From NCBI GenBank assembly GCA_964035015.1, contig OZ035997.1:89595965-89659964 (forward strand): a stretch of 64,000 nt of DNA. Reading direction: 5' to 3'. A program made the translations under genes and the position numbers. Positions within the stretch are counted from its first letter, which is position 1. Every line of letters begins with the position of its first letter. Below the pieces are notes generated by a model. The model was not told the origin of the DNA and made no database searches. It saw only the letters and a program-made list of their open reading frames with translations. Shown here piece by piece: positions 1,292 through 42,822 of this stretch. This DNA is from Corallium rubrum (lineage: Eukaryota; Cnidaria; Anthozoa; Scleralcyonacea; Coralliidae).

Positions 1292-24503
<23,212 letters not shown>

Positions 24504-29477: not shown

Positions 29478-31765
29478 TTGATATTTTAAATCTCTCTCAT
29501 TCAGTGTGGCCTGTGTGAGGTTGTCATCGTGCTAAGAGGGTATTTATATAGAGGTGAGCTAGCCAGGGCACTATAACTAGCGCGCTGTATATTCGATTTA
29601 AGGTCTTCGTTAAGTTTGCAGACTCATTTCGATAAAGCGCTCTCAATGGACCTTTTACCTTTTAGGAAAAACCCGCAATGCATTGTGGTATCACTTCACT
29701 TTCAGGTGAAATGGCTGCCGCAAGGCGAGCACTTTTACTTGGAAGAATAATTGATTGGTTTTAACCACTTTTAGCTTTCGAGAGTAAACTTTACTTATTG
29801 CAGCATAACTAGGGGGGTATTTACTACATTTTGTGGAAAAGGTAATGAAGTTACTGCAGTCGTCGAGAAAGTCAATTCAGAGCGATTGACTGACCGAACA
29901 CGCTTCGAACAAAAACATTTATGAAGAAAGGCCTTTGCGAGCGTTTGCAGGTGAGTAAGCTTATCAAGTGGCGATCAATAAAATATTTTGCTATGTGGAT
30001 ATCTGTTTGTAGTTGATCTGTACAGATCGTACAGTTTTTGTGTCGACTGAAAGTCGACATTATGTTGGGAGCTTGGACTGGCAGTGTTTGTGGCAATTAC
30101 GTCACACGATGAAGGTTCGTTTGACATTTTCTGTCTGACATTTTCGAACGGTGGTCAACGAAAATTCCCGAAAGATCGCCGCCATTTTGTTTTTCACACG
30201 CCACACGGTTCAGGTTGTGCACAGACTTTCGCTTTCTTGACGTTTTTGACCCAGGAATCCAGGATAAGTATATCAATATTTGTTTTATTTATCGAAACCA
30301 TTGTGTTTGCACTGGCCAACATTTCGGCGAGGTTCTATTTACGTGTGGATATCACGTACGAAGAAAATAAACAGAGTCATTGCGTTCGTACTGACTACTG
30401 ACCAACATACAGAGATGGATAAAACTTAGATTAGATTATAAATTGGATTATAATTAGTTAATTAACAGTGTCAGAATATCAAAATACTTTATTAACTTTA
30501 GAATGTCAACATGTTCCCATGTTCCCAGAGTTTTTTCCTGCTCGATCTGTAATCCTCTTCCTCATTAAAACTGTCTGAGTTTAACTAGTCACCAGGCTCT
30601 CTACTTCCAGCCGAAATTATTTTGCTCTTTTCAATAAACCAGTATATAATTTTTAAAGAAGACTAAAGTATTTTGGTAAAGAAGAATAAAAGACAATAAA
30701 AGAAAATTTTTAGCCTCGAAAAAAATCTTTTATTATAAAAGAAGATAAAAGAAAATCGATTAAAAGAAGATTTGCCATCCTTGCCAACATATTTTTGGTC
30801 AGGTTTCATTTTACGTGAAGGCCAGGTATCAAACAATACAATAAAAAACTATCATTAAAATACTATTGAACCAAGCCATTGTGCTGGTATTATCATTGAA
30901 CCAAGCCGTTGTGTTGGTATTTATACTCAAGCAAGCCATTGTGCTGCTTTTTAACACTTATTTATATAGCCATTGCTATTGTGCTGGTGCATTTACTCGA
31001 TATAATATGGGGGTTTCCATAGAAGTATACAGATCAAGAATTGGTTCCCATAACAATTTTTTTCAAAGCGAGGGAAGCTTCATCTCATCTAAAAGGTAAA
31101 TTTTGGAATGAAATGTTCATAATGTTTTATCTCAGTGTGTTTTATTTGCCCTGTCTAAAACAGCTGATTAAGCAGCATGAAAGTAAGCAGGAAATCGTTT
31201 CAATGGCGATTTATAAAGATTTACAAGGGAAGTGGAAAAACAAGAACATTTCAAAGAAGTGCAGTCTTGATTATGGTTATTAAAAGAAAAGATAACGTCA
31301 ACGATCGTCAAGATCAACTAAGTTGTCTAAAGTTAACAAATATCACTCATGGTTTCGAATTGTTCAGTCATTGTATTTACTCTCAAACATCAACTAAAAA
31401 GTATTTAACTCTGACAACAAAAATTCACACAGATTTTCATCAAATAATGCTCAAAAGAGAAGCAAAACAAGCCTAAAATGCGGTAACACAGCAATTGAGC
31501 AACACTTCGGGTTTCTTGTTTTGGCATGTAGTCGCATTCGCGTTTGTTTATTACGAAAAAACGGGTATTTCTTTAACATATTTCGGCAGTTTTATGTTGA
31601 GATGGTCGCTCATAACAGGTAAATATCTTGTTTGGGACACTAAAAAGTGGTCGCTGGTCGCGTTAGGCAGGTGATCACTCATTGCAGGTACATTTCTATT
31701 ACAAATCACCCGTGCCAGAAAAAGTGGTCGTAAACAGCAGGTGGTCGTTAAAAGGGGTGTCGTAA

Positions 31766-34095
31766 AACTCAGGTTCATTAAATGGAAATAGTCTGTATGG
31801 CTGTCTAAGCAAATCTATCAACAAAGACTTGTTATTACTAACTGATGTACCTGAAATGGTTTCAATTGATAATAAAATTTATTGTTTACAATACAGTGAA
31901 TCATTTTCTGGTGCTTTGTTTATGACAGCTAACAATGATCCTTTTGTTACACTTGAACATGCTTTTAATCAGATATTTTCTAGTTCTTTGTTAAATTACC
32001 AAAGTTGTTTGCTTACTATCGGTATTAATACTGTTGCAATTTTTAGACCTTTTCCAGAAGTATTTAAAATTTTTGACTCTCACTCAAGATATTTATATGG
32101 AATGCCATGTCCATCAGGATGTTGTGTTTTAACTTTGGTTGAAGGTGTTCAAGACTTAGTAAACTATTTTCAGCTTACTTCATGTGTTCAAGACATAGTT
32201 TTACCTTTTGAATTGAAGGGTGTTGTATGTACTCTAGAAAATTTCACAGGAATGCTTGGTACACCTGTTTCAGTACATCTTTAAAAGGTAGTGATAATAA
32301 ACAAAATGAATCTGAAGAGTTGAGGGCAAAACGACTTTCTAAAAAACGCAATTATGCTAGAATGGTTAGACAAAATGAGTCAGCAGAGCAGAGAGAGGAA
32401 AGATTATCGAAACAAAGGATTTATGCAAAGTCTGTGCGAAAAAATGAGTCTGCAAAGCAGAGAAAAAAGAGGCTATCAGTGAAGTCAGATTGTAATAAGA
32501 CAGTTCAACAGAATCAAACTGCTGAAGCAAGAGAAACGTTACTATCTAAAAAACGTGATTATGCTGCAAGTGTAATAGCCAATAAGACATTTGAAATGAG
32601 AAAGAAAAGGTTGTCTGCTAAACGTGACCGAAGTTATGAATTAAATTGTGGTGCAGCAAAAACTATTAATGAGCTAATAAATAAATTTCATATTAGTGTA
32701 TCTACAGGGCCACTCTATACATGTACATGTTCATGTTGTGAACAATTATGGTATAAACATAGTGTTTGCCCAGCAGAAAGAGTTCGACTGCTTAATCGAA
32801 ACATAGTTACACATCTACAAAATATTATAAGTGTTGATAATGTTGAATGACTTTGCCAGTCATGTAATAGATATCTGAGAAAAGGTAAAGTACCACCATG
32901 TGCAGTATCAAATGGGATGAAATTTCCTGTGAAACCTGAATTTTTTTACCTAAATGAGCTTGAATGTAGACTAATTGCCCCAAGATTGGCATTTCAAAAA
33001 AATATGCAAGCTCCAAGGGGGAAGCAATTCAAAATAACTGGTAATGTCGTTAATGTCCCAGCAGATGTAACCAATACTGTTAACATGTTACCACGGTTAC
33101 CCCAAGAAACTGGAACAATCGAGGTTCAGCTAAAACGTCGATTGCAGTATAAGAGTTCGGCGCTGTCTTTAAATGTAAGACCACATAAAGTTTTTGAAGC
33201 AGCTACTTGGTTAGCAACTACAAGTGCATTATACCGGCAGAGAGCAAGGAATAACCGTTCATCAAAACTGGAAAGATGACTGTGCTCCAACCAAAAATCA
33301 TGCAGATAATTTTCGATCAAAAGATTCTGATAGTAGTTCCACTGAAAACAAGACTACGTGTAATCCAGTTGATAATCCAGATGATGATTGGAGTGAAGAT
33401 GAAGCAGAGATACCTGCTGGGGTCACTGATAGCATGCTAACCGCAACAGATTTTCTTGATGATAATGAACGACAACAAATTCATAATGTTGCACCTGGAG
33501 AAGGAAGCAGACCTCTTAGTATATTTAGAGACCAGTATTCAGAAGAATTAGCTTACCCTGGAATATTCGTAGGTCAGAAAAGGCCTGATGACAAACAACG
33601 ATTAGTTAGTACTTACTATAGTGAAATATGTAAATCAGAATTGAGAAGATCTGATCGAAGAGCAGCCATGTGTGTTGAAAATATATTTTTTAAAGCAAAG
33701 AAACTACAAATGAAAATTTTGTTAGGCAAATCACAAATTGCTCTTAAAAAGTGCAAATCAAGTAACAAAACAGTAACTGCTGGCCAAATAAAAATACAAG
33801 GTGGCTTAGAAAACTTAATTCACCATGATGAGGGGTACAAATTCTTAAGAGCCCTAAGAGGGTCTCCCCCATATTTTGAGAAAGCCAAAAAAGATTTGTT
33901 TGCAATGATTCGACAATTAGGTCCAGCAACGTTGTTCTGCAGCTTTTCATCAGCTGATCAAACGAAATGGGTTCATTTGCTCAGAATACTTGGCAAACTT
34001 GTTGATCACACAGACTACAGTGATGACGAATTAGAAAATTTAAACTGGGAAGAAAAATGCAGGTTAATTCAAAGTGATCCTGTTACATGTATTTA
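31766..34095 (+). pseudogene. Helitron replicase 5' fragment, truncated and frameshifted
   Basis: Three consecutive parts are readable. First, a segment with GSLNGNSLYGC and FDSHSRYLYGMPCPSGCCVL (31766-32284), like the protease-type N-domain of animal Helitrons. Next, repeated ERLSKQR-type basic coiled segments and CSCCEQLWYKHSVCP, then QLKRRLQYKSSALSLNVRPH (32285-33240, DUF6570-like). Last, a Helitron_like_N segment with RALRGSPPYFEKAKKDLFAM and SDPVTC (to 34095). Breaks are frameshifts near 32280 and 33238 and a TGA at 32848. It stops just before the HUH nuclease motif; no helicase is present. Confidence 0.8.
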
Positions 34096-35240
34096 TTTTT
34101 TTCATACTTGTATTTCCTTTTATTTTTCTGTTTAGTTTTCCTTTCATTTACCCTGGTATTAAATGAAATGTGTTTTGTTGGGTTTTTTCCTCATTTTAGT
34201 AACTGGCCATAAAATAATTTAGCTGCAATTTAATATTGGACTGATGAACATATATTTAACAATAATATAACGCAAGTAAATGACTGTGGACATTGCTCAC
34301 TACCTGCAGTGTTATGCTTTTCTGGAAATTGTAAGCTTCAATAATCAAAGGATGAAATCAAGAAGGAAAATGTCAAATTTAAATCCAAAGGATTGATTAT
34401 GAAACAATGGTGCCTCATAAATAAACATATATACATTTACAAGAAGCCAATGTCATCATGCTGAACAACCATCTGGATAATGCAACATCCCATGTACATC
34501 AAAGTATGTTTTAGAATTATACATACGTCTTTTATATACAACAACCTGCCTGACACAATTTAAACACCATGCAAACAAGCTTTGAGCAACTTAAGTGGAG
34601 AAAAGATTTACCTTAAAGCAACTTGTCCAACCAGCAACCTGTGGAAGGTTTAAGAAATGTCTCAGAAAACAACCAACCACATTCTCATGCAGAACAAATA
34701 GAATTTGGACGTGCAACCGAAATCTGGACAAATAACATCTCAGAATGAAATCCAAACATCACAACAAAATACCAAGGAAACTTTAAATAGATAATAGATT
34801 TACCTTAAAGTTCAAAGCACCGTATCCAACCCGGGTGAATGTAGAGAATATCACCATGATATTAAACAATACCTGGATTTAAATATATTTTCCAGTCTAC
34901 TTTTCTGACAATGAATATTCAACTCTAACATTCTTCACACAGCATTTTGCTCTGCAGATCCATTCATTTTTAACTAAAAAATACATCTTGCTGCATGTAG
35001 ATGTTTCATAAAAAGGACATGTTAAATATTGTACTGACCGGTTAGTTATTGTAATGAGTGGTTAGTTAATGAAGATACAATACATTATTTTTTCCCGGTC
35101 CGGAATTCCTTAAAATCCTGCTTTCTTATTGGCTAACGAGCGGTCCAGAATTTTAGAGTACGGACCTCGCAGGCTAAAACTGCCCGACAAATGTTTTAAA
35201 ATTTGGTTTTGAAATTACTTTTTAATATAAAAGATATCGA
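34096..35240. other. Noncoding DNA between Helitron fragment and recombinase
   Basis: AT-rich with no frame or inverted ends I can support. The word AGATTTACCTTAAAG occurs twice (34604 and 34797). The last 140 bp may be the leader of the recombinase gene. Confidence 0.4.
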
Positions 35241-35243
35241 AAA

Positions 35244-36420
35244 ATGAATTGGGGCGAAAGTGAATTTTATTACCCGTCAGACGATTGGACTGAAGAACAG
35301 CTTGTGAATAATGAATGCCCAACAACTCACTGCCCAACTAGCGACACTGTAGCGGTTGTAAACACAGAAGACGAAAGTAACGCCGACGATATAAACATAA
35401 TTCAAAACTTTATTGAGAAACAACGACCTGAAGCTACGAAGAAGAAGACGGAATACGACCTAAATGTCCTCAAAAGGTACTTTTTATCAATTAAGGAAAC
35501 AAGAGAAATTGAAATCATACCTGCTCATGAATTAAATGTTATGCTTTGTAAATTTATTATGAACGCACGAGAAAAAAAAATGGCGAAATGTATGAGCCGT
35601 CGTCCCTTACTTCATTCCAGAGAAGTTTGCAGAGATATTTGAATAACAAGAATTCAAGGGTAAATATATTCAAAGACCAAGAATTCTCCAAGTCCAGAGA
35701 AGTTCTCTTGGCGAAGAAACGAGAGCTTGTGCAGCAACACGCTAAAGGAAACAGGCCGCAGGCAGCTAGAGAGTTGACAACAGCTGAAGAAGATCGTCTT
35801 TTTGAAACCGGGATGTTTGGTGACCACGAACCCGAAGTGCTACAGAGAACCTATCACTTCACTTTGGATTTAGAGCTCGTGACGAATCAAGAAGGGTGAA
35901 GTGGGGAGATTTGGCTCTTGGGAAGGATCCAGAAACAGGAGACGAAGTCTTGATATGGAAAGCCGAACGTGGATCCAAAACAAGACATGGCAATGGCGAA
36001 GACAGACGGGCGTTTAATCCAACAGCTCAAGCGACCAACAACGAGCGTTGCCCAGTTAAATTGTTTAAATCCTTTGCCAGCCATCGGTCCGAAGAAATGA
36101 AAAAGCCAGATTCACCGTTTTACCTGGCCATTAACCACCGACGAAACCAGGCTCCAAAATTTGGTACACAAATGGTCCGTTGGGTAAAAACGAAATCGGA
36201 AAGCTGCTCGTAAAAGCTGCCAAGTCTGTTGGTTTGCCAGGTAAAATCACCAATCACTCTGTTCGAAAAACGTGCATTTCGCGGTTAATGGATGCTGACA
36301 TTCCAGAAAATTACGTGGCCCAACTAAGCGGACATAAGAATCTTAAAAGTCTGGATTCCTACAAGTCAGTAGGTTCCGGTACCATGTCATTATTTATTCA
36401 TGTTCATCAACCGGTCGACA
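35244..36420 (+). pseudogene. Crypton-type tyrosine recombinase (DUF3504-like), frameshifted
   Basis: Reading passes through four frames: 35244-35585, 35588-35870, 35896-36175 and 36180-36420. An acidic N-terminus leads to an SAM-like core-binding part (EYDLNVLKRYFL, SLTSFQRSLQRYL). The catalytic part follows: KWGDLALGKDPETG, CPVKLFKSFASHRSEEM and NHSVRKTCISRLMDADIP, then the second His in LSGHKN and the nucleophile Tyr in SLDSYKS. The HxxR, H and Y positions of tyrosine recombinases are all present. The tail after SYKS does not look native, so the 3' end may be truncated. Host-domesticated relatives with this domain exist in animals, but three frame breaks argue for a dead transposon. Confidence 0.8.
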
Positions 36421-37049
36421 CATGTACGCGCTGCGTACCTGTTTTTGCAAATGTGAACGTCTCCAAATGCCTTTTTTCCCTTATTGAGACTGACAAAGTT
36501 TGGCCATGCTTCCGATCAGACGTTCGATAAATACCCCCCGCTAGCAATGTTTTGGTTCTGTTTTGGCGCAAAAACTAAGCTTGTTCGGTGAGCAAAAATT
36601 CAGGTTTTTACATTAAAAGCTGCAACTCAAAAGTACTTTCTCGAGTTTTGCCTGGTTTGCAGCCGTCGTTTTGCTTGTATTCTTCTTTGTGTCTTGGTTC
36701 GTATCCTCCCAAGTAATTTAGTAGGTTCTAGAATTAGTTTAGGTCGGAAAATAATTTAAATTCAACGTTGTTTATTTACTAAATATTTAAAAAAAGTGCG
36801 GAGTTTTTCTCTGTACGTGTTGTGTACATTGAAGTTTTCTCAAATAGTTTTAGTTACTAGATATTAGTAAGTAAAAACTCAAAGTATAAATATAAACTTT
36901 ATTTGTGTTTGTGCAGTGTTCTCAAACTATAAGCTAATTATTACAGTAAGTTAAAAATGTTTAACTTAAAGATAACATTGTAGGGTTTGGCTTAACTTGT
37001 CAAACGTGTTAGACAGTTGAATAGTCTGTAAATAAAATAACTATAAATT

Positions 37050-37053
37050 GTAT

Positions 37054-37147
<94 letters not shown>

Positions 37148-37328
37148 GCTTACCTCAAAAGTCTGCTACAGGCTGTTTCATCTAAAAAAGAATCTTTAGA
37201 TGAAACAGCCTGTAGCAGACTTTTGAGGTAAGCGAAAATCTATATTTGCTCTAACTATATGTTATCGAGCACTCTTTGCGTTTCGTAGACCAAAACCCAC
37301 ACGTATATATATATATATATATATATAG
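37050..37328. repeat. (GT)n(TA)n, perfect hairpin, then (AT)n in the left ISL2EU arm
   Basis: (GT)n changes to (TA)n up to 37144. A hairpin at 37146-37232 follows (TTCGCTTACCTCAAAAGTC and complement around a 6-bp loop), then a second AT run at 37302-37328. The right arm has only (AT)n at 41057-41116, so the hairpin is a later insertion into the AT tract. Confidence 0.85.
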
Positions 37329-37395
37329 GAATATATTTAATAATATATATATAAAATTTATTTAATTACTGTATTGTAATATTACAATTTTTAAT

Positions 37396-38888
37396 ATGGA
37401 GGATGAACCTTGCACTTCGAAGGAGGCAAACAAACTGCAACAAGGTAGTAAATCCGGTGAATCTACTGCATGTCGAGGGGGAAAGAATTGTTGTGTACCA
37501 CAGTGCAGAAACAACAGCCGAAGGAATCCAGAACTTTCTTTTCACAAGATACCGAAAGACGGCACCTTGAAAACAAAAATGGGTCAAACTATTGAAAACC
37601 AAAGGCTTGTGCAACCCTGGTGTTCATGACAAGGTATGTTCAGCCCACTTTCCTGGAGGGAAAAAGACATATAAAAACAATATTCCAACAATATTGGCTG
37701 CAGATACATATCAAAAGTCAAGGAGGACTCTGGTTATACATGACAACTTACAAAACAGTTCATCAGATGATGAAGTCACTGAATACAGCAACACAGAGTT
37801 ATGCTCTGGAACTTTGAATGAAGAATCCGTTGAAGATTTGGTCACTGACAGTGACAGTGACAACATGGTTGACAATCTTCAGAAACAAGTTGAAGCTCTT
37901 CAGTCAAAGAACAACACCATCCAGAAAAAATATGATGATGATGTGAAAACAATGGAACAGTGCCTATTTCGATTGGAGAGATTTATTGGCAGTGACAGTG
38001 ACTTCCGATTCTACACTGGATTTCCAGACTACTCTACCTTTAAAGCTTTTTTTAATTACGTATCACCTGCATGCAATCACTTTATATACTGTGGATCTAC
38101 AACAGGCCCTATAAATTCTGGCAAACATAGAAAACATGGTAAACAAAGATCAATATATCTCCAGAACAGGAACTATATTTTGGTGCTATCGAGATTACGT
38201 TGTGCTTTTCTTTTGCAAGATCTAGCTCACCGATATGTCACTAGCCCATATTTCACGGATCTGGACAACTTGGATTACATTTCTTCATCAGCAACTTCGA
38301 GCGTTGCTAATTTGGCCCAGTCAACAGTTTGTTGATGCTAACATGCCTACCTGTTTTAAACAAACATTTCCAAAGACTAGAATTATCATTGACTGTACTG
38401 AGTTCCTGATTGAAATGCCATCCTCTTGCAGAAGCCAGTCTGTCACGTTCCTGAATTACAAGCACCGTAATACTGCTAAAGGCTTGTTAGGTATTTCCCC
38501 CAATGGATATCCAAGTTTTGTTTCTAGTCTTTATGTAGGAAGACTTAGTCACAAAAAATTAACAAAGGATTGTGGGGTTCTCTCTCTTTTGGAAGAAGGA
38601 GACCAAGTTATGGCAGATCGGGGATTTGACATTGAAGGCGATCTTCCTGTTGGGGTGACACTGAATATCCCTGCCTTTCTAAATGGAAAAGACCAGCTGA
38701 CGCTGGAAGAAGAAACCTCAACGAGGAGAATGGCATCTGTCCGTGTGCATTTTGAACGAGCAATTGCACGTATCAAGAACTACCGCATTTTGCATCAGGT
38801 AGTTCCACTTACCATGGCTCAAGATCTGGAAAAAATATGGAGTGTATGCTCTTATTTGACATTATTCCTCTCCCCCTCCCCCCATTGA
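37396..38888 (+). pseudogene. ISL2EU transposase (THAP zinc finger + DDE_Tnp_4), frameshifted
   Basis: Starts MEDEPCTSKEANKLQQG inside the terminal repeat. A THAP C2CH finger follows (CCVPQC ... VCSAHF, with FHKIPK between), then an acidic linker and coiled segment, then the DDE domain. The three catalytic acids are visible: Asp in IIDCTEF (codon 38391), Asp in MADRGFD (38616) and Glu in HFERAIARIK (38754). Frameshifts lie near 37590 and 38240. Length and domain order otherwise match full ISL2EU transposases, so loss is recent. The product would bind and cut the terminal repeats in the nucleus. Ends LTLFLSPSPH. Confidence 0.88.
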
Positions 38889-39389
38889 TTGATGATAAAA
38901 TGCAGAAACTATAAGATAATTTTAATGTTGCTTGATATGGTGCTTTTAGCCTTTTACATGTATGATATGCTACATGTATGTTCAGTCAGACAAATCAAAT
39001 AAGACATATATACATCAAGGCAAACAAGCAATGTTACAAATACTGTACATAATTTGATAAGGCGAAGCTTGCATTTTTAACATTTTTAACAATTTATAGC
39101 TATAAGCAGTTTACTTCGTGAGTACATGTACTCTAATACATGACAACTCTGTTTTCCTTTAAACTTACTGTGTAAATAACATTTACATAGTATTATTTAT
39201 ATACTACAGGTATACTGTATATGCATATGGAACTTGTGTATGAAGTATAATAATTTATAACATTGTAGTATCAGCAGGAATTTGATAAATATTGCAAATT
39301 GTATTTAAATAATTTGTATAATTATTATATAGGGAACTGATATTTACTAATTTTAAATTACAAAATTAATGTAATTAATTGTAAATAAA

Positions 39390-40970
39390 TTATACTTTTC
39401 CAAGATTCAAACATGGTAGTAAATCATTAAAATAAAAACTGTTAAGCTCTGGTAGCATTGTTCTTTCCCAGAATTCATGGTCAAAATAAACTCTCTCTAC
39501 ATGCAAGTCCTTGTTGGTAAACACAACAAAATCTGACCACTGTAACTGAAGTGTTGCCATGGACCCCTGCAGCTGATAATAATAAAAGTGTTTCCTTTTT
39601 AAGGAAACTTTACCATTAGAAATACCCAAGAAAAAATTTGGATCCTCACATGCTTGAACAATAGAAATATCTTTCTTAGAAAATGGGCACTTGACCTCAC
39701 CAACACCAAAGGTGGATGCTTCCTGCATATCACTAACAAGAAAGTCTGGACTAGCACCTAACCAAGGGAAAACTGGATTGACTATGAAGCCACATCGTGA
39801 ACATATCTTCACAAATTGTCCTTGCGAATGTTTTAACTTAAAATAAGCAGTTATTGCTCTGTCTTCATTGTCCTTACCCCATTGGCAAGGTTTGGGACAC
39901 TTTGAGTCTTTCGATTGGTTTTCCAGCATTTTTTGCAATAAAGACTGGGTGGATTGTTTTCCGCCTCTTTACAACTGCACCAAAGTTTGATGCAGTTAGT
40001 CTAGTCCTCCTTTCCTGGTACCATTTCTCACATGATGCCTGTCCCCTTGTGTTTCTTTCAATTTCTATAGTAATTGTGAATGTGTACTACCTAAGAAATC
40101 ATTTACAATGTCAATATTTTCCTCATCCACACAGGCCCGGTTAACCGCAGCTGGCTTTAAACTTTCTAATATTTGATCTCGGATATTAGATTCATTACAT
40201 CTTTTCTTTGAAGGAAGGTTGCTGTGAACTTCTTCAAAAGGAAATGGTTGACAGTCATTTGACTCTAACAATTTACACAAGTAGTTTGCTTTTTGTGAGC
40301 GCTTTAATTCAACAACTAATTTTTTAATATTTTGTTGTGATGTTTCTCGAGCAAATTGTGGCATAGGGTTGTAAAAATTGTCAGGTGCCTCTCTCTTTAT
40401 CCTATTGTTTTTACCACTTGTATCTTTCTCATATGATGCCTTTTCAAAATTAACGTCTTCATATAGAATTGGCTCATTCAGTTCATCATTTCTAGGCACA
40501 TGCCACTGTTGTAAAAGCTGGGTGCAGGTAAGATCTTCAGGGACCTCTGTCAATTCTAACTGTATATACTCGATAATTTGGAAAAGAAGTGCTACAACAT
40601 ATTTACAGCATCCTCCTTTACCAGCCTTACACGTACAATTAGCATAGAGTTATTTGATTCAAGTGAACATAAACAACAACTATTTTTCTTCATGGAGGCA
40701 TTGACATATCCTTTGATTAAGTAAAAGGGTTGGTCATTGTCCTTTTTAACATCTGCTTTGACTTCCACTTGCCTGACATTGGTATCCAAGTTTCTTATGT
40801 TTATGCGCACCAGTAGAGTTGTCATTGGCTAATTTTGGCTCAGTTCCCAGATGCTTTTGCAATAGCTCATAGGTAAATGGTGGAAGTAATTTCAAGTCTC
40901 TTGTCCATCGCTTTGTCTCACCTTGTTGCAGTTTGTTTGCCTCCTTCGAAGTGCAAGGTTCATCCTCCAT
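39390..40970 (-). pseudogene. ISL2EU accessory protein: SWIM zinc finger + YqaJ-type nuclease, frameshifted
   Basis: On the minus strand it begins with the same 17 residues as the transposase, then GAHKHKKLGYQ and a SWIM-like finger CTCKAGKGGCCKYVVALLF (the usual final His is Tyr). A long linker follows, then the YqaJ/lambda-exonuclease fold: [21 protein letters not shown] (metal Asp), GVGEVKCPF (Glu-x-Lys) and YYYQLQGSMATL. At least three frame changes are needed (near 40790, 40640, 40060), so it is broken or partly intron-split; a GTGAGA donor directly follows the shared first exon. It faces the transposase gene convergently. In ISL2EU elements this protein's role in transposition is not settled. 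Confidence 0.82.
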
Positions 40971-41051
40971 ATTAAAAATATCCTAACTAATTTAACTATT
41001 TTAATATTACAATACTGTAATTAAATTTTATATATAACATTAAATATATTC

Positions 41052-41121
<70 letters not shown>

Positions 41122-42062
41122 TTATAATTATTTTATTTACGCACTATTCAACTATCTAACACGTTTAACAAGTTAAGCCAAACCCTACAAATGTTATTTT
41201 TAAGTTAAAAAATTTTATAACTTACTGTAATAATTAGCTTATAGTTTGAGAACACTGCAAAGTATAAATATAAACTTTATTTGTGTTTGTGAGTTTTTAT
41301 TTACTAATATCTAGTAACTAAAACTATTTGAGAAAACTTCAATACACACAACACGTACAGAGAAAAACTCCGCACTTTTTTTTAATATTTAGTAAATAAA
41401 CAACGTTGAATTTAAATTATTTTCCGACCTAGACTAATTCTAGAACCTACTAAATTACTTGGGAGGATACGAACCAAGACACAAAGAATACAAGCAAAAC
41501 AACGGCTGCAAACCAGGCAAAACTCGAGAAAGTACTTTTGAGTTGCAGCTTTTGTAAAAACCTGAATTTTTGCTCACCGAACAAGCTTAGTTTTTGCGCC
41601 AAAACAGAACCAAAACATTGCTAGCGGGGGGTATTTATCGAACGTCTGATCGGAAGCATGGCCAAACTTTGTCAGTCTCAATAAGGGAAAAAAGGCATTT
41701 GGAGACGTTCACATTTGCAAAAACTATATGATCTGTACAGATCAAGTACAAACAGATATCCACATAGCAAAATATTTTATTGATCGCCACTTGATAAGCT
41801 TACTCACCTGCAAACGCTCGCAAAGGCCTTTCTTCATAAATGTTTTTGTTCGAAGCGTGTTCGGTCAGTCAATCACTCTGAATTGACTTTCTCGACAACG
41901 ACTGCAGTAACTTCATTACCTTTTCCACAGAATGTAGTAAATACCCCCCTAGTTAAGCTGCAATAAGTAAAGTTTACTCTCGAAAGCTAAAAGTGGTTAA
42001 AACCAATCAATTATTCTTCCAAGTAAAAGTGCTCGCCTCGCGGCAGCCATTTCACCTGAAGT

Positions 42063-42696
42063 TAGGGATGGGCGATACTAGTACAAAATATCGATACCAA
42101 CGATACTTACAAAAGTATCGATACTTTCGATACTCGCAAAAAGTATTGGTAATTTCGATACCACTTGAGCCTGCGATGTTTTTGGTCAGTATCTATGAAA
42201 ATCGGTGAATACTTCATCATGCAGGGTTGTATGAATGCTGTTTTTAAATAAAAACACTGCCTCGTACCCAGGCGTCTCCACATACATATTTGCATACATA
42301 TATACATTCATATTTACACGAAGTACTGCAATACTTCGTGTAAATATGAATGTATATATGTATGCAAGTATGTATGTGGAGACGCCTGGGTACGAGGCAG
42401 ATAAAAACATTTAACTAAATAGTTATCACTTATATATTTAGGCAAACATTGAACATGCACGTTGATATTGTTCAGTTTAAGATTTAAAATCATAATTGCA
42501 AATGTTTATGCAGCTGATAGACTATTCCTTGACTTGTTATCTTTGTTACTTTAATATTCTTCTTATTTTAAAAGTTATTTCAATCAATGTAAAAATTGAA
42601 GTATCGGTATCGATTTTGGTATCGGTATCGACCAAAATTCTTAGTATCGGACTGGTATCGTATCGAACAAAAAATGCTGGTATCCGCCCATCCCTA
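42063..42696. mobile_element. hAT MITE inside the ISL2EU right arm, 8-bp duplication
   Basis: CCTGAAGT flanks both sides (42055-42062, 42697-42704). The ends TAGGGATGGGCGATAC and GTATCCGCCCATCCCTA are followed by (GATACC)-like words. Absence from the left arm confirms the boundaries. Confidence 0.9.
42257..42400. mobile_element. 144-bp MULE-like hairpin MITE nested in the hAT MITE
   Basis: ATAAAAACA flanks both sides (42248-42256, 42401-42409). A near-perfect palindrome has ends CTGCCTCGTACCCAGG and complement, which share CCTCGTACCCAGG with the 8890-10533 element. Confidence 0.88.
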
Positions 42697-42822
42697 CCTG
42701 AAGTGACGTGATAGTGATACCCAACTACCACAATGCATTGCGGATTTTTCCAAAAAGGTAAAAGGTCCATTCCTCAGAATTTATTGCTACAAAAATAAGC
42801 TATTAATTTGTAGAATACAATT

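Follow-up and report, generated by a model that had tools for sequence, protein, structure and literature searches.

Two convergent genes of a DNA transposon, one for a THAP/DDE transposase and one for a SWIM/YqaJ protein, begin with the same letters in the 64,000-nt stretch of the Corallium rubrum genome analysed here (the window), which raises the question of how two different proteins come to share their starts and whether this is peculiar to one copy. The first-pass annotation had placed both starts within an inverted repeat, and this proved correct: a perfect 60-nt inverted repeat (37387-37446 and 40920-40979), too long an exact match to have arisen by chance, contains the ATG and the first 17 codons of both genes. 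The translation from the ATG on either strand is MEDEPCTSKEANKLQQG, and the two sequences diverge after GGT, at GT-AGTAAA on the plus strand and GT-GAGACA on the minus strand. This repeat is only the inner tip of far longer terminal repeats, whose outer ends were mapped to 29648 (GGACCTTTTACC) and, as the complement, to 42768, where the flanks read A-AT and AT-T (Table 1).

Table 1. Features of the transposon copy and of its insertions, in window positions
Feature	Positions	Strand	Evidence
AT target-site duplication, left	29646..29647		flank CTCA-AT|GGACC, with the A expected of A|AT|T before it
Left terminal inverted repeat, outer part, starts GGACCTTTTACC	29648..30040		terminal match 29645-29690
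Later insertion in left arm	30041..36440	+	arm interrupted; 7-bp direct repeat GTTTTTG
Left terminal inverted repeat, inner part, through ATG and 17 transposase codons	36441..37446		arm alignment
Transposase shared start, 17 codons MEDEPCTSKEANKLQQG	37396..37446	+	translation
THAP/DDE transposase gene, broken (pieces in three frames)	37396..38888	+	Pfam THAP 2.7e-5, DDE_Tnp_4 5.3e-38
SWIM/YqaJ gene, broken	39390..40970	-	Pfam YqaJ 6.9e-9
SWIM/YqaJ protein shared start, same 17 codons	40920..40970	-	translation
Right terminal inverted repeat, inner part	40920..42062		arm alignment
Small insertion in right arm	42063..42696		inverted ends TAGGGATGGGC, 8-bp duplication CCTGAAGT
Right terminal inverted repeat, outer part, ends GGTCC	42705..42768		terminal match
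AT target-site duplication, right	42769..42770		CC|AT-TCC; T after

The element between these ends belongs to the ISL2EU type of DNA transposon, and this copy of it is dead. When window positions 29560-29760 were used as a query, 37 of the 42 non-self rows among the matches listed (best 40 of 945 candidates) started at query positions 79-90, near the left edge, and the segment 29701-30040 matches 41718-42060 inversely (97%). The left arm is interrupted by an insertion of 6.4 kb with tyrosine-recombinase-like frames near its right end (Pfam DUF3504, 1.6e-9; Phage_integrase, 1.5e-7), which we take to be Crypton-like, and the right arm by a presumably hAT-like insertion of 0.63 kb containing a 144-nt near-perfect hairpin (42257-42400). 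Without these insertions the arms measure 1392 nt and 1207 nt and are 96.4% identical (1124 of 1166 aligned columns; 267 gap columns). Positions 36441 and 41724, suggested as the element ends by a table of inverted repeats, were rejected: the former is an insertion edge and the latter a mirror point, beyond which the right arm continues and matches 29701-30040 in inverted orientation. The left arm also holds a small palindromic stretch (window about 37147-37237), similar to stretches in two other loci (L009, 9857-9965; L014, 1984-2094). At the former of these loci an insertion with 1007-bp arms, 99% identical, lies within an F1-like arm (5850-9015), and its arm matches overlap by 9 bases, as for a 9-bp target duplication.

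Elements of the ISL2EU group (PHIS superfamily) carry two ORFs, encoding a THAP/HTH/DDE transposase and a YqaJ protein, and duplicate AT in A|AT|T; their termini usually start with GG, and the terminal repeats surveyed measured 6-259 bp (Han et al. 2015, PMC4482050). The families found in Corallium (F1 to F8, the window copy representing F1) resemble this description in their two ORFs, in the AT duplication in A|AT|T and, for F1 and F6, in the GG terminus (PMC4482050). THAP, HTH_Tnp_4 and DDE_Tnp_4 occur together in one 492-aa frame in F3; in the broken transposase pieces of the window no HTH match was obtained with Pfam. A YqaJ domain is present in the second ORF of F2, F5 and F6 as well as in the window, and the SWIM domain scored above the cut-off in F5 and F6 and below it in F2. 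The window SWIM/YqaJ frame meets a stop after 74 codons, and the single further piece scanned (40065-40649) gave no SWIM match; the name SWIM is taken for this gene from its relatives in F5 and F6. The AT duplication was recognized in the window and in one F7 and one F8 copy (judged from occupied sites). The terminus reads GGACC in F1, GGCC in F6 and instead AGTCGG in F8. The differences from the published group concern the repeats: the F1 arms lie outside the 6-259 bp range, which is that of the survey and no criterion (the 190 nt of F8 and about 150 nt of F7 lie inside it), and repeats entering coding sequence find no mention in the consulted sections of that paper (PMC4482050).

Relatives were collected from this one genome (474 Mb, 312 contigs) by two protein searches, in which the best 150 of 441 and the best 150 of 400 candidates were scored, so that the numbers of relatives are lower bounds. 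Sequence was read at the 30 best loci of each protein search, at 8 loci, and in 6 longer and 3 short stretches. Both gene starts were read in six families beyond F1 (F2, F4, F5, F6, F7 and F8), with one copy each in F1, F2, F4, F5 and F8; F3 is represented by the transposase side alone. Counted from the ATG, the two genes are identical over 51 nt in the window copy, 54 nt in F2 (C8:4368271), 55 nt in F4 (C22:13245828), 70 nt in F5 (C1:22370994-22374413) and 146 nt in F8 (C8:19725690-19729633). The identity amounts to 4 nt (ATGG) in F6 (C13:10428259), and in F7 (C37:12231499, C28:4490726) the arm ends 2 nt before the ATG of the SWIM gene and about 72 nt before the first ATG of the transposase gene; the two genes of F6 and of F7 have no peptide in common, and those of F7 not a single coding base. 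Where a peptide is shared, its versions are akin (MEDEPCTSKEANKLQQG, MEDRPCTSKDADRVTQQV, MEDEPCTSMESQREKQLP and MEDEPSTSMGVKEQLPLPVTRHE, and IDEEPSTS within the longer F8 segment). The proposal that two different proteins draw their 5' flank, start codon and first residues from equal arms is thus borne out beyond the window: the shared-start architecture is real and recurs in ISL2EU-type elements of the Corallium rubrum genome, more widely than first proposed, without being universal (F6 and F7).

The repeat is continuous from the terminus to the gene start in F7 and F8, in F1 once the inserts are removed, and in F6 when two copies are combined; the loci of F2, F4 and F5 end short of the terminus. 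The transposase frames of the F2 and F4 copies read are broken, and in F5 we found at least seven copies with both open frames, of 489 aa and 543 aa (best 150 of 441 and 150 of 400 candidates). Two further, more distant families lie around C39:5791508 and C1:22830187. When viral contigs were scanned with the SWIM/YqaJ protein of F5, no relative came to light.

The shared stretch had been interpreted as a common first exon bounded by GT on both strands, and this interpretation is not supported by the comparison. Both frames run through the GT at the boundary, so that no intron is needed there, and whole proteins are encoded by relatives in single open frames from that ATG (the F3 transposase of 492 aa, with THAP, HTH and DDE, and the SWIM/YqaJ proteins of F2, F5 and F6). 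In F5, two Met codons precede the THAP cysteines, both within the arm, which therefore supplies the start of the transposase frame. A GT does stand at the end of the shared letters on either side in F1 (GTAGTA, GTGAGA), the copy for which it had been noted, and likewise in F2 (GTTGAA, GTTAAA) and F8 (GTGGGA, GTAGAA), but F4 and F6 lack it and in F5 it follows on the transposase side only (GTAAGA). A real first exon in the arm, with the GT as splice donor and a different set of downstream exons for each gene, would account for the three families with GT on both sides and for the GTAAGA of F5. Against it speak the frames running on, the domain-bearing single frames of the relatives and the absence of the GT in F4, F6 and one side of F5, and we consider it highly improbable. 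Splicing at the boundary appears unnecessary, although it could occasionally take place.

The sharing might also have been a private gene conversion of the window copy. This was ruled out by paired starts elsewhere in the genome and by recurring arm boundaries in F5 and F8. A degenerate 23-nt pattern for MEDEP(x)TS had 77 matches (none in the reversed control), which formed 28 convergent pairs at distances of up to 25 kb (up to 5 kb in 26 cases), with no divergent pair, one tandem neighbour and 21 unpaired matches. The paired sequences were identical over the 23 nt in 27 of the 28 cases, a figure to be read knowing that the pattern itself restricts the possible difference between paired arms, and all 28 pairs had the same Cys or Ser codon at both starts. 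The corresponding F8 pattern gave 28 matches, comprising 13 convergent pairs at most 5 kb apart, with 2 matches left unpaired (hand count).

Searches with single arms located the boundaries copy by copy. With the F5 query (best 40 of 48 candidates), 16 arms, its own included, matched to base 222, 18 stopped at base 157 and 2 at base 109, and 4 rows were F4-like. With the F8 query (all 34 of 34 candidates scored), 15 arms, again including its own, matched to base 260, 14 stopped at 237 and one at 233, and 4 rows were weak; the 29 arms outside its own locus started at base 42-46, which fixes the F8 terminus. The F8 repeat of 190 nt contains one mismatch; from its first ATG, 44 nt in from the terminus, the remaining 146 nt form an open frame. 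With the F6 query (best 40 of 74 candidates), 17 arms including its own matched to base 220 and 21 stopped earlier, 16 of these at base 104, which corresponds to ATGG, and 5 at bases 55-96; of the remaining 3 rows, 2 represented one split arm and 1 a fragment. The idea that the arm always ends at the same codon therefore stands in a restricted form: within a family most stopping arms end at one base (157 in F5, 237 in F8, ATGG in F6), but there are exceptions within families, and the boundary differs between them.

The reading that we favour, with a probability of about 0.78, is that the terminal inverted repeats form the 5' regions of two convergent genes, with the start codon and first codons included, and that they are probably homogenised by arm-to-arm gene conversion limited by selection on both proteins. 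Such conversion would act on the 5' flanks, for example by template switching during repair of an excision gap, and purifying selection on the two proteins would set its inner limit, since conversion extending further in would overwrite the THAP domain or a domain of the SWIM protein. In the SWIM/YqaJ protein, the first conserved Trp lies 3-8 codons past the boundary in F1, F2, F4, F5 and F6 and about 29 codons past it in F8; in F7 it is residue 14 of the protein.

That the two arms evolve together follows from the identity of the shared codons within an element, compared with the wide differences between families at synonymous and non-coding sites. Between families, pS over the 18-codon tag was 0.33-1.06, with five of seven comparisons at 0.59 or above (NG86; with 8-10 synonymous sites these values are an indication only), and 0.63-0.82 in the remainder of the genes (NG86). 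Within an element, non-coding arm identity near the ATG was 0.98 in F4, 1.00 in F5 (86 nt) and 0.99 in F6, and lower in F1 (0.62), F2 (0.79), F7 (0.76) and F8 (0.64), to which indels, a microsatellite or flank beyond the terminus contributed. The same side compared between families gave 0.37-0.56 (no shuffle control was run), which we take as the level of unalignable AT-rich sequence. The coupled sequence evolution suggested by the first-pass annotation is upheld by these comparisons, the synonymous sites being strongly different between most families and not within the shared codons of an element, albeit over few sites.

Selection on the peptide, or on the DNA as a site of transposase binding, might keep the shared start identical without any conversion. 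Codons 1-9 do retain MED-P and a following Ser/Thr, with a pN between families of 0.04-0.18 (NG86, 7 comparisons), and the F8 segment contains the similar IDEEPSTS. Selection of this kind does not explain, however, why synonymous sites of the shared codons agree within an element and differ between most families, why the non-coding arms agree within F4, F5 and F6 and not between families, or why the motif is absent from F6 and F7. We therefore regard selection by itself as quite unlikely; alongside conversion, it may act on the shared start. In the comparison of F4 with F5, tag pS was 0.33 (0.00 in codons 1-9) and tag pN was 0.27, as opposed to 0.15 in the rest, which indicates that the later part of the tag is hardly constrained.

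The similarity of the arms could also be a matter of age, if a single recent inverted duplication of the 5' region gave rise to each family and the arms, free of ongoing conversion, are too young to have diverged. Among the matches listed, F5 arms are 96-100% identical (the exceptions being one of 87% and the four F4-like rows), and F5 is thus young. In seven F6 copies the arms of one copy differ at 1-4 of 253 sites (mean 0.8%), as against 1.4% between copies on the same side and 1.6% on opposite sides (73 comparisons each), and a single site differs by side in 6 of these 7 copies. The F6 arms thus differ about half as much within as between copies, and homogenisation at that level is incomplete; the side-specific site is what young, unconverted arms would show. 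Nevertheless, the tag occupies a homologous place in F1, F2, F4 and F5, so that independent duplications would have had to end near the same codon each time, and the Cys or Ser codon agrees at both starts in every pair. Recent duplication without conversion is in our opinion unlikely, if somewhat less so than selection by itself.

From the arrangement of the letters we infer that each arm carries the same promoter and that the expression of the two genes is coupled. Both proteins would be made from equal leaders and start sites, which would match their output, and one small RNA could silence both. For F8 we tentatively raise the further possibility, in our estimation rather doubtful, that the codons of the shared N-terminus are themselves part of the putative binding site of the transposase; if so, one set of letters would do triple duty, as the cis-acting end of the element and as the start site and the protein tag for two genes.

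DNA transposons are usually regarded as having non-coding terminal repeats. In the present elements the repeats make up the beginnings of two unrelated genes, with an inner limit at or near the gene starts in arms ranging from about 150 nt in F7 to about 1400 nt in F1, and masking such ends strips the start of both genes from an annotation. If conversion is indeed the agent, the boundary records in a natural way the exchange between the arms and its restriction by selection on the proteins, and an element with two genes has here an uncomplicated means of matching their products. A comparable situation exists in herpes simplex virus, a viral system, where US1 and US12, beside the short-region repeats, receive the same upstream region from two inverted-repeat copies; as here, two different genes are served, but the shared part is non-coding. 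MuDR of maize belongs to another superfamily. Its two convergent genes have their promoters and transcription starts in or just inside terminal repeats of ~215 bp (PMC3440606). The convergent gene pair with promoters in the terminal repeats, a feature of MuDR that is inferred for the present elements, is common to both, whereas the sections consulted describe shared promoters and not a shared start codon or N-terminus (PMC3440606). The literature searched yielded no ISL2EU element described as having a start codon and N-terminus common to its two genes, although Repbase entries may contain one unremarked, and no matching description of terminal repeats with shared starts, coding overlap or homogenisation, including the consulted parts of PMC4482050, PMC9179366, PMC3440606 and PMC9587614; a text search of the Galileo paper (PMC4168063) did not find the terms sought. 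The architecture is new as a variant.

Some copies depart from the usual boundary. The F4 search (best 40 of 99 candidates) revealed short convergent pairs in which both arms match to base 219, past the end of the tag (base 119) and into SWIM codons. Examples are C46:1545754-1547878, C9:1213356-1215494 and C8:27852834-27855124, each of about 2.1-2.3 kb, and the spacing of the starts in such pairs is 1.9-2.1 kb, compared with 3.0-3.4 kb in the C1:10188329 and C1:28656666 pairs. A single ancestor may have given rise to these short F4-like copies. Since the scored rows were of the SWIM type, this search was uninformative on the transposase side. A short convergent pair of the F6 type (C8:19880386-19882330) likewise has the start of the SWIM gene beyond the usual boundary in both arms. 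In F8 copies at C22:16003292 and C28:15329745 / 15333662, the third ATG of the shared segment is replaced by GTG or TTG, and in the C28 copy it is altered in both arms, by different letters.
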